Shown one piece after another: positions 58,500 to 64,000 of a stretch of 64,000 nt of DNA. The notes below the pieces were generated by a model that worked only from the letters and a program-made list of their open reading frames with translations, was not told the origin of the DNA and searched no databases. The translations under genes were made by a program, and so were the position numbers. The stretch spans positions 186,001 through 250,000 of the forward strand of contig JASKOT010000013.1 in NCBI GenBank assembly GCA_032158125.1. Direction: 5' to 3'. Within the stretch, counting starts at the first letter, position 1; each line of letters opens with the position of its first letter. The stretch comes from Papiliotrema nemorosa. Taxonomy: Eukaryota; Basidiomycota; Tremellomycetes; Tremellales; Rhynchogastremaceae.

Positions 58500-59182
58500 C
58501 TACTCGTCGTGTCGACCGGCCAACCTGTCTTCCCTCCACGTCTCCGCCCATTGAACTATCCTGCCGACGTTCTCCGTCACTTCTTTGTCGCTCTCTCCAT
58601 CAGATTTCAATTCGACGATGATATTCTCATCGTATGATTCCCTTGTTTCCGTCAGACAGGTCATCATGATTTCCGCGGTTATATTCTCTTCCAGCTTTTT
58701 CTCCGGATAATTCCTGCGACATGAGTTTCACAACATGGTGTTTGGCCCACTTACCGTTCCGTGAGACGTTCGTGCAGAACACTATTTGAGCAGGTGAGGA
58801 CTACCGCCAGATCGACCCATCGTTCCGGGAACAAACTAGGATCATGATGATCAAGTATGAATCCTTCCAATCAACCTCCCTCTTCCACCTAAAACCATCT
58901 TCTAGGCAACTCACCGGTTGTTGCAGGCGCATCAGGCGGGTTGACGACTTCTTCCAGGTAATCCAACAATCTGTCCTCATCTACTGTATAAGACTGCCAA
59001 GTCTCGTCCCATCCTTCGTGAAAGCCTTTCTCTTTGACTATGTCTCCAATGTTCAAGTGTACCATGGGTGTACTGCTTTCTGCTAAATCTGAAGCGAGCA
59101 GAGTCGAGTGAAGAGTCTTGCCTGTTCCAGGTGTACCGGTGACGAGGATGACGGGGAACTGTCGAGTGTGGTGCGTTGTCAT
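58500..59182 (-). CDS. Adenylate kinase isoenzyme 6 / Fap7 ribosome-assembly ATPase
   Basis: Nuclear NMP kinase and ATPase needed for late 18S rRNA cleavage. It starts MTTHHTRQFPVILVTGTPGTGKTLHS with the P-loop GTPGTGK. LNIGDIVKEKGFHEGWDETW and TVDEDRLLDYLEEVV follow, then GGFILDHHDPSLFPERW and the lid with VVLTCSNSVLHERLTERNYP. The end reads EENITAEIMM, ETRESYDENIIVELKS, and GRHDE. An in-frame upstream ATG at 59227 would add 15 residues but family members begin near the chosen one. Divergent from the demethylase gene. Confidence 0.92.
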
Positions 59183-59724
59183 GATGAGGTTATTGAGGAG
59201 TTTCTGTACGCTCAATGAACTATGCAATGCAAGAGAGTGTCGTTGCGAGATGCTATATCGCTCAGAGGTGCTTGCGATGAACTTTTGCTCGTAAATGTCT
59301 ATGGGCCGTGCCTGAATCGAATACCCCCCTGGGGGTGGGTGGCAAATCTCAACGGGACCAGAAGGTTGCCAGTGCGAGCACTCCCCTTCATCGACTCCCT
59401 TCCCACTTTAGTGGGTTATGCATCGACACCTCGACAGTACTATCCTCTCTAGATAGTATCGCAACACCCAGAGTACAGTCAATTCCCGAAAATTGTGATC
59501 AGCGCGAAAGCAGGTTCGAAAAATATCGCATCGCCCCCCTCGAGTCCGGCCTCGTTGTCGTCTGATCGTCCACCCATCACCCATCACACATCACTTGTTC
59601 GTCGTCAAATATCCTTCCTTAACAATCGCTTCCAAGTCCTGAGCGATAGGTTATGCTTCGTCTGCCCCTGCAGAATCACTCAGCGTAACCTAGAGCATAC
59701 CTCAGTAGCCGACCTGTCTGCATC
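59183..59724. promoter_or_regulatory. Divergent promoter, AK6 and the demethylase-folate gene
   Basis: About 540 bases. The right-hand half is open in another frame (from 59495) but reads as low-quality peptide, so it is treated as promoter and leader. Confidence 0.4.
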
Positions 59725-62700
59725 ATGTCGGCCGACTTCGCAGCTGCACCGAGTGCAGCTGAGAGTACAATTACCGCTTTACCCACCGATCGCATCCCTC
59801 ATGATAGATTTCTGGCTGGAAATCCATCACTGCCTCAGGAAGTCTCGGCAGTCGACGCCAGCAGTCTTCCCTCGACCTCGACACCGTCATCGAACACCTT
59901 ACCTCCACCCGAATCTCCCTCAAGGAGGAGCACAAGGAGGACTGAAATACCGAAGCCCCAATTTCCCTCTCAGCCGGAATATCTTCAACCTTCGGAATTG
60001 TAAGGTCCTGTATTTGATACGTGTTCTTCCGCTGATATCAAGTTACCCATTGAGCAACCATTCAAATACTGTACCTCCTCCACCTCCACTCCCCGGTCAA
60101 TTCCTCTCTCCAGAAAATGACAAACTCGCTACCCGAGGCATTCCCATATTCCGACCTACAATTGAGGAGTTCACCGACTTCGAATCGTATGTAACGAGGA
60201 CTGTACCATGGGGACAATATTCCGGTATTGTCAAGATCATCCCTCCTACAGATTGGACAAATACCCTTCCTCCCATCCCGGCCTCCTCCCTCGCCAATGT
60301 GAAGATCAAGAGTCCAATTCAACAAAACATGCTAGGACAAGCGGGACTGTTCAGACAGACAAACGTGGAGAAGATGAAGAATCGACCATTGAGCATTAAA
60401 GAATGGTTTGATAAGTGTAATAATCCGAAATTCGCTGGTCCGGGACCTAAAGATGTGGATGTTACGCTGGATAGGGATAGTGCGGCTGCCAAACAGAAGA
60501 GAGCGGAAGAAGAGGCAGAACGTAAGAGGAAAAAGATGGAGATGAGAGAGAAGCGTCAGGCTGCAGCTGCAAGGAGGGAATCCAGGAGGACAGCCAGTCA
60601 GGCCGAGGCGAAGATTGAAGAATCGGTCAACGGGGAGGCGGAGGAGGAGATCCACGAAGAGGACCAAAAGATGGAGGAGGTGGCCACGAAGGCGGGACAG
60701 GTGGCTTCGGCAGAAGCTACAACTCAAGAGCCCGAGGCTACAGATGTTCCACCCCTGGATCCCTCTTCCCGACACTCCCCTCAAAGCTCACCTGATCCTC
60801 TTGCCAAAACGCCCGAGTCCACCTCATCTGTCGACCCCACACTGGAATGGTACCAGAATCTTGATCTTGCTTCCGCTTGGTTGCCTAAGGGCACATCGAC
60901 ATCCGACTACACCCCGGAAGCTTGCGCGCATCTGGAGAGGAAATTTTGGAAAACCCTAGGATTGGGCGAACCAGGATGGTACGGTGCGGATCTTCAAGGC
61001 ACTCTCTTCCCCGATCCTGAAACCCCATGGAATGTTGCGCATCTGCCAAACCTGCTCAATCGTTTGGGTCGGGAGTTGCCGGGTGTGAATAGGCCTTATC
61101 TGTACTTTGGCATGTGGAGGGCCGCCTTTGCATGGCACGTCGAAGATGTGAGTAGCTGTGCAGGTGAAGGTCTTGAGTTGACGCACCAGATGGATCTCTT
61201 CTCAATCAACTACATCCACTTTGGCGCTCCAAAGTTCTGGTATGCTATTCCACAGGGCCAAGCCGAACAGTTTGAGCGTACAATCACCAGTGAATTAAGA
61301 TCGGTGCTGTGTTGTCCGTGACAAGCTGAAATGTCAGGTTACTTCCCACGAGAAGCGGGTCAATGTGATCAGTTCCTCCGACACAAAGCATACGTCATGT
61401 CGCCTACTCGACTCGCCAAAGATGGAATACACGTCAATATGCTGGTGCACAATCAAGGGGAGTTTGTCATCACCTTTCCTCGAGGCTATCATGCCGGATG
61501 GAACATGGGATTCAACTGTGCAGAAAGCGTAAATTTTGCCTTGGATAGTTGGGTCGAGCTGGGTCGAAGGGCAAAAGTTTGCAAATGTGTCAGCCATAGG
61601 TCAGTCGTTGCAGACCGTACTGCATTGATCCGCTGACAGCTAGTGTGCGGATCGACATGGACGAGTTGATGAGCGACAAGGAGAAGGCAGCGCAGGAGGC
61701 CAAGATGAAGACAGAGCAAGATCTTGTCGCTGCCATTCAAGCGGAGAAGTCGCGCAAGAGGAATATGGCTACCTCTAATCGACCACACAAGAGAGCAAAG
61801 CATGACTCGTCGACGATCCATAATGAGTCTCACACATCGGAGAACGGGGATGACGGCGGCCAGATGGGACCCCCTCAGTCTCTTCCTTCAGCTGTATCGG
61901 GCCTGGAAAAGAAACGCAAGACTCTCTCGCTCGACGATGCGCCACGAAAGCCCAGTATCGTTAGCATACCATCGACTTTCCCTTGTATACTGTGCCCACA
62001 TCAGTCGATGGACGATCTCTTACCGGTATACCAGCCGGCCGATAACGTCAAGGCCATGTGTAAATCGCATGATGGGGTGGTACGAGCGCATGTCATCTGC
62101 GCCAACTCAGTTCCGGAAGTGTGGATCGATCAGGTGGATGTTGAGGGCAGGAGCGAAACTGTGGTAATGAATGTGAACGGGATTGCTAAAGCGAGGTGGT
62201 CTCTGGTGAGCTCTTAGGAATATAGTTTGGACACCAGCTGATCCTCAGAAATGCCAGAGCTGCGATGACAAGAAGCTAGCTGCGATGGGTGCAAAGGCTC
62301 AGTGTGTCAATGTAAGCAGACCCTACAACGGATTTTTCGAGTCTGATTTCTAGGGCAAATGTCCTCGTGCATTCCACGTCACTTGTGCAAGAGACGATGA
62401 GCAGGTGGTGTACCGATTACTTGAGGTGGAGGAGACGGTTCCAGGCGAAAATGGTGGTGAACCTACCCAACAGATGGTCATGAAGACCGATTTGTTATGT
62501 CCAAACCACAATCCTGTAAGCTGCCCCTACTTCTAAAGGTGAAGCTCACAAGACAGGATGTAAAAGAGGCCAAAAAGCTTCAGGCACTCAACCAGCTCAA
62601 GAATCGGGTTTTATCCATACTTCCCGGACAATCAGTCAAGATCAAACTCAATCGAGGCTCTTTCGAGGTCAAGATGGTCCGTGTCATCGAGGAGGAACAG

Positions 62701-64000
62701 AAGGCAGAAGTGCAACACGAGAATGGACAGATTGTGCTCGTGAAATGGTCAGAATTCGATTTCAAACCTGTCGTTGCGCCCAAAGTAGTGGAAAACGAAT
62801 ATGGTAAGTCGGCTGGCGTATTTTCATAATGAGGCTGATGGTTAGCTCGGGAGTACATGTACTCACGAAATGCTGACGGCAAAGCCGTCCCGGTTGTGCC
62901 CACGCCAACGACTGCGGCGAGCGAGAGTTCACGTCCTGCGCCGCAACCTAAACCGAAGGCGCCTAAACCTAGACCAGCTGCCAGTACAGGGAAGCCCAAG
63001 GTGGTCAACACGCAGCATCTCTCTGTCAATCAAATGCTCAATCATCCTTCCCAGGCTCGGCAAATACCTTCCAAGGTGGTGGTCTGTGACTCCGGGTACC
63101 AGTATCCCAAACACCCATCTGGTCCCTTCCAATCGGCATCCCGTTCCAATCACCGATCTCAGCATCTGATCGATTATCAAAACGGTCATCATGGGAACTA
63201 CGAGGCGCAGTACGCGTATCCTCCGGCAAATTACGGTTACGCGTATCAAACCCCTCAGCCTTACTACGCAGACCAAGGTCATGTTGCTTATGCGACTCCT
63301 CATCAGCACTATCCTACCTCAGAATACCCACCCAAGACCTCATATCAGCCGTCTGTCCTCCAACCGGTTCCCGCACAGTATCATATGCCGGGATCCTATG
63401 TTGGAGGGTATCACCAATCTATGCCGCCGGCAGGTCCGCACGTGAACGGTTACTCGGGCCTTCCACCACCCCTGGCTATGCCTCAGCCCGTTCATCGAGC
63501 CCCGGGTCAATCGCATGAATTACCCTCCCAGCAACCACCCTTAGCTGGACACGTCTCCCATCGTCCTTCACCGGTTACCTCCGTCTTGCTGCCACCGGTA
63601 TCAAATAGCGCGCTGGAGGCTCCCTCGACAAATGGTGTGGGCAAGATCGATCTTGGCTTGGGCCGTATGGAACGATTAATGGCATCTCTTGCACCTCTTC
63701 GCGTGCCTGCCATACACTTGGCAGGAACCAATGGGAAAGGTAGCGTCTCTGCGATGCTCGAAGCTGCGTTGTTAGCCTCTGGCATACGAGTCGGTCGCTA
63801 CAACTCGCCTCACCTTGTCGAACCACGAGATGCTATATCGCTTGATGGACTCCCGCCTCATCCACAAGATTATCAAACCGCCATGCAAAGGATCAAAACG
63901 ATCTCCGTTCAACAGAGTATCGAGGCGACGACATTTGAGATCGCTACTGCAGCTGCGTTCGACTTGATCAACGCGTATAATCCCGATATAATGATCATCG
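59725..64000 (+). CDS. KDM4-type histone demethylase fused in frame to dihydrofolate synthase (3' partial)
   Basis: Starts MSADFAAAPSAAESTIT. After a 43-nt intron (about 60001-60043) comes JmjN (GIPIFRPTIEEFTDFESYV), a charged insert, then JmjC: FAWHVED and, after the next intron, MDLFSINYIHFGAPKFWY, holding iron ligands His and Glu and the oxoglutarate Lys; the third ligand is in PRGYHAGWNMGF. An extended PHD (CILCPHQSMDD, AHVICANSVPEVW, CPRAFHVTCARD) and a Tudor-like strand set (GQSVKIKLNRGSFEV) follow. The last exon, open from about 62847 to the window edge, has a Pro/Gln/Tyr-rich linker and then, near residue 1190, KIDLGLGRMERL, HLAGTNGKGSVSAML (P-loop), YNSPHLVEPRDAI and TTFEIATAAAFDL, a Fol3-like dihydrofolate synthase. 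No stop separates the parts. Demethylation at H3K9/K36 is expected from the family. Confidence 0.82.
63637..64000 (+). other. Dihydrofolate synthase / folylpolyglutamate synthase domain (partial)
   Basis: Mur-ligase-fold domain that joins glutamate to dihydropteroate. The P-loop GTNGKGS is at 63724-63744, followed by SPHLVEPRDAISLDG and ATTFEIATAAAFDL; the edge cuts it after about 120 residues, before the ADP-forming catalytic centre and GLGGRxDATN region. It lies in the frame of the demethylase exon. Possible internal starts in frame (63421, 63478) would allow a separate protein. Confidence 0.85.

Follow-up and report, generated by a model that had tools for sequence, protein, structure and literature searches.

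A KDM4-type histone demethylase continuous in frame with dihydrofolate synthase in Papiliotrema nemorosa and related fungi: a probable, apparently undescribed two-enzyme protein

Here we describe a gene of the basidiomycete Papiliotrema nemorosa in which a histone demethylase of the KDM4 type continues in frame into dihydrofolate synthase (DHFS). The gene lies in a stretch of 64,000 nucleotides (C13:186001-250000 of a genome of 19.2 Mb in 68 contigs), which is called the window below and for which an initial annotation had pointed to the joined frame. Judged by sequence comparison, KDM4-DHFS looks like a real, old and apparently undescribed two-enzyme protein. We consider it probable that one gene gives rise to one long protein, in which a KDM4/Rph1-type demethylase and the DHFS of the cell are connected by a flexible tether of about 266 residues, and that the two enzymes were fused before the split of Tremellales and Trichosporonales. 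When spliced in silico, the gene (59725-65016) consists of nine exons in one frame with 1648 codons plus the stop codon, and its eight introns are 41-48 bases long each and all of the GT..AG type. Exon 9 (62846-65016) is located inside an open frame of 725 codons, which contains both the linker and the entire DHFS. The final 1016 bases with the stop codon at 65014-65016 lie outside the window; bases beyond window position 64000 were read from the part of the contig that follows.

The N-terminal half is, on the basis of its sequence, a KDM4/Rph1-type histone demethylase with predicted activity on H3K9/K36. Pfam profiles identified JmjN (residues 126-159, 43 bits, cut-off 26), JmjC (residues 444-560, 130 bits, cut-off 24) and the extended PHD finger (zf-HC5HC2H, residues 730-809; PF13771, 52 bits, cut-off 29.1). 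Upon alignment to Rph1 (3opt), H457 and E459 are found in an HVED motif, H545 in GYHAG (543) and K475 in FGAPK (471); we take H457, E459 and H545 to be the Fe(II) ligands and K475 to be the 2-oxoglutarate ligand. Rph1 (3opt, E 6e-96) is also the best match among solved structures, followed by KDM4A-D. In animal KDM4 proteins, a Tudor domain follows the PHD. The complete KDM4 layout of the initial annotation is confirmed for JmjN, JmjC with intact ligands and the extended PHD, and its Tudor-like part stays putative: no Tudor match was obtained with Pfam in the window protein, and a beta barrel at this position is present in the predicted model of the relative P0001, where it is unmatched to any solved Tudor (the structure-search rows of P0001 (Foldseek, VIA) fall on its DHFS part). 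JmjN and JmjC with the intact HxE...H and K475 are common to Rph1/KDM4 (JHDM3) and the window protein, and the extended PHD is also present in basidiomycete relatives, whereas the window protein adds about 720 residues after ENEY, namely a low-complexity tail and a complete DHFS.

The C-terminal half agrees with the Fol3-like DHFS with intact P-loop that had been annotated initially. The exon-9 frame matches TIGR01499 (folC) with 250 bits (cut-off 163), Mur_ligase_M is found at residues 1218-1451 above the Pfam cut-off and Mur_ligase_C reaches 26.6 bits, slightly below its cut-off of 28.4. The GTNGKGS P-loop starts at residue 1219, a DGAHN motif is present and the half matches FolC structures (1o5z, 1e-36) and has the FolC fold. 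In contrast to FolC and the fungal Fol3-type DHFS, it lacks an initiator methionine at the domain edge and has a histone demethylase as its N-terminus. Searching the genome with TIGR01499 yielded three matches, i.e. the fusion locus and two pieces of a gene on contig C9, and PF08245 matched the fusion locus only. The C9 gene carries GTKGKGS and YDSTN, presumably the eukaryotic signature of folylpolyglutamate synthase (FPGS); by its sequence it looks like FPGS. For the fusion half, DHFS rather than FPGS specificity is predicted. A second stand-alone DHFS gene, for which the initial annotation had proposed to look, was thus not found with these two profiles in an assembly that may be incomplete. 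DHFS is expected to be essential in fungi. If this holds here, the fusion frame must supply the enzyme, since no second DHFS was seen.

The linker is of low complexity and rich in Pro, Ser, Ala, Gln and Tyr. As initially annotated (about 264 stop-free codons), it runs open into DHFS over 266 residues. The 798 bases scored (residues 926-1191) contain no in-frame stop codon, as compared to three and seven in the other two forward frames; dinucleotide shuffles of the linker gave a mean of 7.1 stops and were stop-free in one of 2000 cases. A codon score trained on the remainder of the same gene favours the linker frame over the other two forward frames in all seven overlapping sub-windows and over all six frames in six of them. 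The stretch of P0001 matching the linker is predicted to be disordered. Between eleven close pairs of joined proteins, linker identity amounts to 42-75% with 1-9 runs of insertions or deletions (DHFS, 75-92%); for the window protein and the more distant P0001 the values are 38% and 15 runs (DHFS, 63%). As the pairs were chosen from joined rows, they lend support to translation but are no test of it. A linker that changes fast and keeps its frame is the expected look of a translated tether and supports this interpretation. An artefact of annotation or assembly, i.e. two adjacent genes that merely seem joined because an intron was missed or a frameshift or sequencing error occurred, is very improbable: although DHFS is joined to unrelated domains in other models of the same search (e.g. 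Lanmaoa, Wallemia, Coprinellus), the two halves in the window have neither intron nor gap between them, the same open frame is present in many other assemblies and codon use is coding-like along the whole linker.

Furthermore, the fusion is conserved in relatives, all of which were examined as protein records. The DHFS part was searched among long proteins (906-2884 amino acids), of which the 7999 candidates with the most words shared with the query were scored. Among the 52 matches, 30 contain JmjC (PF02373), and 26 of these are named clusters of Tremellales and Trichosporonales, including Kwoniella, Cryptococcus amylolentus, two Cryptococcus sp., Kockovaella, Naematelia, Uapishka, Vanrija, Cutaneotrichosporon and Cryptotrichosporon. 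The order was checked for Kockovaella, Kwoniella and Naematelia (Tremellales), Vanrija and Cutaneotrichosporon (Trichosporonales) and Naganishia (Filobasidiales, see below); the placement of the remaining genera is presumed. The joined models, among them those of Kwoniella, Kockovaella, Naematelia, Vanrija, Cutaneotrichosporon and C. amylolentus, have the same domains, the same domain order and a similar kind of linker as the window protein. They go by names such as H3 demethylase, RPH1, hypothetical or uncharacterized protein, and the names, as far as shown in truncated form, never mention the DHFS half; the protein names in these fungi thus hide DHFS under 'H3K9 demethylase'.

A set of 59 metagenome rows was assigned to this group because of their identity to the window DHFS (the tree described below includes only some of them; P0065 also has an ncbi source). 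Their ends or middles enter sequence that is annotated as intron in relatives: P0029 begins in other sequence just before QFDVYME, and P0001, P0073 and P0091 cross intron 8. They resemble unspliced open reading frames (ORFs), and we infer that they are such. Four of the rows extend to the JmjC region (P0002, P0025, P0027 and P0029; 1061-1530 amino acids) and eight to the KDM4 end; these 12 longest-reaching rows have an open frame over the entire linker. At least 60 residues before DHFS are present in another 22 rows and fewer in nine, rows of the C. neoformans/gattii type being among these, and one row (P0087) lacks the P-loop. When contigs of bacterial and archaeal genomes were scanned with a DHFS alignment, 80 loci were obtained, all from bacteria or archaea by title. 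The 26 named joined clusters, together with the proteins that read as unspliced ORFs, support the view that the fusion is more than a chance joining of frames, and they speak against the chance-shared frame that had been kept as an alternative in the initial annotation. In addition, unnamed KDM4 ORFs without DHFS were encountered (635-747 amino acids, e.g. P0176, P0210, P0220, P0255 and P0257), which, being short pieces, were left out of the counts. P0176 and the DHFS row P0081 lie on contigs of equal length (8302), as do P0220 and the DHFS row P0097 (14072), which hints that each pair represents neighbouring pieces of one gene.

The start of the DHFS domain bears on whether the enzyme is made on its own. 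In 38 picked rows of stand-alone DHFS, a methionine is found no more than 11 residues from the domain edge (MSIDLSLDRI and similar). A common edge in the fused proteins reads G-V-G-K-I-D-L-G-L. In the 38 fused rows counted (P0033, which lacks the P-loop, was dropped), the nearest upstream methionine is at least 30 residues away in 32, and one row (P0020) has none in its linker. Two overlapping genes could nevertheless be present, with most of the DHFS coming from a separate transcript or from translation that starts at a linker methionine (63478 or 63421 in the window) and the joined frame as a by-product, or with both products being made. We regard this as rather unlikely. A G at -3 of the methionine codon at 63478 and the common methionine at about -43 in Cutaneotrichosporon-type rows are in line with it, as are the separate genes described in the next paragraph. 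However, the methionine positions vary across the group and none is present for 77-190 residues in 7 of the 38 rows; the linkers gain and lose residues yet stay in frame, also in the rows resembling unspliced ORFs; and a pattern search for GTRNGT or GTAAG found no splice donor of these types in the window linker.

Several observations weigh against one long protein, at least as a general rule. In five of the 38 fused rows a methionine is closer than 30 residues, and linkers do hold in-frame methionines, in the window 56 residues upstream of the domain. The KDM4 part was also used as a query, and the best 120 of 4055 matches comprised 29 named clusters that belong to Tremellales or Trichosporonales as judged by their names, 25 joined to DHFS and four with the genes annotated apart. 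Among the matches listed, the separate models belong to C. deuterogattii, C. neoformans, C. depauperatus and Tremella mesenterica, the last being marked partial. The DHFS of the C. neoformans/gattii type starts from its own methionine at about -40, and in P0098 the stretch before this methionine looks by eye like a leader, unlike a KDM4 tail. For C. depauperatus, RNA-seq data of the species itself went into the annotation according to PMC9296135, and two models remain. Taken together, the facts on C. neoformans/gattii and C. depauperatus suggest that the genes are truly separate in these species and are the strongest reason not to assume one protein everywhere. Moreover, the 26 joined clusters are not independent, because gene models shared protein hints: for the recent Cryptococcus and Kwoniella models, gene prediction was guided by proteins of C. 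neoformans H99 and C. amylolentus (PMC11185503). In our comparison, the C. neoformans proteins of this hint set are separate and those of C. amylolentus joined. Over-merging does occur, as the joined model P0026 also contains a zinc-cluster regulator; the linker of P0020 comprises only 28 residues, P0033 has no P-loop, and 15 of the 59 metagenome rows begin inside DHFS and do not speak for a fusion.

Phylogenetic trees were calculated for DHFS (74 rows, without P0033) and KDM4 (42 rows) by a quick method with SH-aLRT support only. In the DHFS tree, one group (99) unites the rows joined to KDM4 with the separate rows of Tremellales, and in this group C. neoformans/gattii-type rows and C. depauperatus sit among joined Cryptococcus. 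The separate Cryptococcus rows are likewise nested among joined ones in the KDM4 tree, where the whole group is set against the outgroup at 94. Because the separate genes nest inside the fused group in both trees, the separation in C. neoformans/gattii and C. depauperatus looks secondary. A single origin of the fusion with later separation is the simplest reading of the trees. Genes lying apart in related species, which the initial annotation had named as a sign against a fusion, are thus found in 4 of the 29 named clusters listed, the three from Cryptococcus being nested among joined ones. The DHFS of T. mesenterica pairs with P0074, a joined ORF (98), and its two models are on contigs of equal size; the separation in this species may be an annotation split.

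If KDM4-DHFS is made as one protein, its history and working might be envisaged as follows. After a fusion that preceded the parting of Tremellales and Trichosporonales, DHFS would have lost the start codon at its domain edge, so that its synthesis would now require the demethylase promoter and, in all likelihood, translation of the entire protein. The fusion would have been kept because DHFS was without a start and promoter of its own; the C. neoformans/gattii line would later have undone it. Both halves probably retain their usual chemistry, with JmjC demethylating lysines of histone H3 and DHFS adding glutamate to dihydropteroate, and the tether would allow both enzymes to fold and work independently. 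At least part of the cellular DHFS would then be linked to a chromatin protein from its synthesis on. In this case, a folate enzyme would be synthesised as the tail of a chromatin regulator in two fungal orders, and folate supply and histone demethylation would be tied at least in expression and perhaps in place. A role of chromatin-bound folate synthesis is directly testable, because both arrangements, joined and separate, occur in close relatives. While each half is well known, we met their pairing only as database records; among the titles and abstracts listed in searches of the open-access literature, none dealt with it, most subscription journals being outside these searches.

Beyond a common protein, a functional coupling might exist, in which folate synthesis at chromatin serves to capture the formaldehyde released by JmjC as methylene-tetrahydrofolate or to provide one-carbon units in the nucleus. 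Reviews on LSD1 describe tetrahydrofolate bound close to its substrate cavity and folate as a possible acceptor of the formaldehyde it releases (PMC8594702, PMC11375787); nothing on JmjC enzymes using folate was met in the literature consulted. The product of DHFS, however, is dihydrofolate, and a tetrahydrofolate acceptor requires dihydrofolate reductase, which is not in the fusion protein. The separate-gene lineage also lives without the fusion, and the partners of DHFS differ in other fungi. In the Naganishia proteins P0034, P0035 and P0036, DHFS follows a histone deacetylase in frame (PF00850; tested in P0034 and precomputed for all three). Their tail block before DHFS (K-I/V-I/M-L-K/R-F-K/R-N-P-A/T-S) is also present in the ORFs P0116, P0121, P0123 and P0127, which contain part of the deacetylase tail plus DHFS. 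As in KDM4-DHFS, the enzyme is thus the in-frame tail of a histone-modifying enzyme, which fits a coupling, but the partner differs, the Naganishia DHFS is separate in the tree and deacetylases release acetate, not formaldehyde. In a third lineage (P0111, P0112, P0113, P0115 and P0118), a membrane-protein-like tail, longest in P0111, precedes DHFS in frame; by eye it resembles the end of a membrane transporter, Pfam gave nothing for it and a PDB search returned two weak unrelated rows. The coupling of demethylation to one-carbon supply proposed in the initial annotation is hence without direct support, and we judge it quite improbable.

A more far-reaching view would be that Tremellomycetes repeatedly put DHFS on histone modifiers (the demethylase in Tremellales and Trichosporonales, the deacetylase in Naganishia), with a chromatin-bound folate step feeding nuclear one-carbon chemistry or taking up formaldehyde from demethylation and with a later release in C. 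neoformans/gattii; this we hold to be improbable as well. The exchange of partners between lineages suggests that an upstream gene easily acquires DHFS as its tail. It is curious, and unexplained, that histone modifiers are two of its three partners. A possible fourth partner is indicated by P0032, in which a cysteine-rich stretch (CSVCNKHGVNYPKCMRCGLAFCSREC) precedes the DHFS ORF.

The window linker contains LSVNQMLN and IPSKVVVCDS (about 63019-63093), which are common to some relatives. Motifs of the LxVxQMLN and IPSRVVVCDS type are found repeatedly in linkers from several Tremellales, where they may serve to bind a partner; a pattern search of the Trichosporonales rows in the fused set gave no match. 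Patterns applied to the last 350 residues of KDM4 rows gave no VVVCDS-type motif in 92 rows and an MLN-type motif in three of the six named ones (P0167, P0169 and P0170). With the former absent and the latter present in three of the six named rows, there is no proof that the motifs predate the fusion.

Features of the fusion gene in the window (positions of the whole stretch)
Feature	Position	Strand	Basis
Exon 1, N-terminal region	59725..59999	+	open frame, donor gtaagg
Exon 2, JmjN (protein 126-159) and start of JmjC	60043..61147	+	Pfam PF02375, PF02373
Exon 3, JmjC core (MDLFSINYIHFGAPK)	61190..61277	+	splice model; Rph1 3opt alignment
Exon 4, remaining JmjC including GYHAG histidine	61326..61599	+	Pfam; Rph1 3opt alignment
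Exon 5, spacer and first portion of extended PHD	61644..62205	+	PF13771/PF13832
Exon 6, extended PHD	62249..62311	+	Pfam
Exon 7, end of extended PHD	62354..62515	+	Pfam
Exon 8, putative Tudor-like region, final residues ENEY	62557..62803	+	beta barrel in predicted model of relative P0001
Intron 8, 42 bases, carries in-frame stop	62804..62845	+	splice model
Linker in exon 9, 266 residues, 927-1192	62846..63645	+	open frame; matching stretch of P0001 predicted disordered
DHFS start (IDLGL..., GTNGKGS P-loop), same exon on to stop 65014-65016	63646..64000	+	Pfam, TIGR01499

Retention of intron 8 would lead to a stop after ENEYGKSAGVFS and to a demethylase of 933 amino acids without DHFS. Such a switch is not conserved in P0001, P0073 and P0091, because all three are open across this intron. 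Directly upstream of the ATG of the fusion gene, a divergent gene with a P-loop AAA_18 domain is located (58889-59407, minus strand), which we take to resemble adenylate kinase isoenzyme 6/Fap7. Because of this arrangement, the two genes may have a common promoter region. Elsewhere in the genome, a second gene with a JmjN domain is found (G000:C3:979359-979460, minus strand, 63.8 bits), which perhaps encodes a KDM5-type demethylase.

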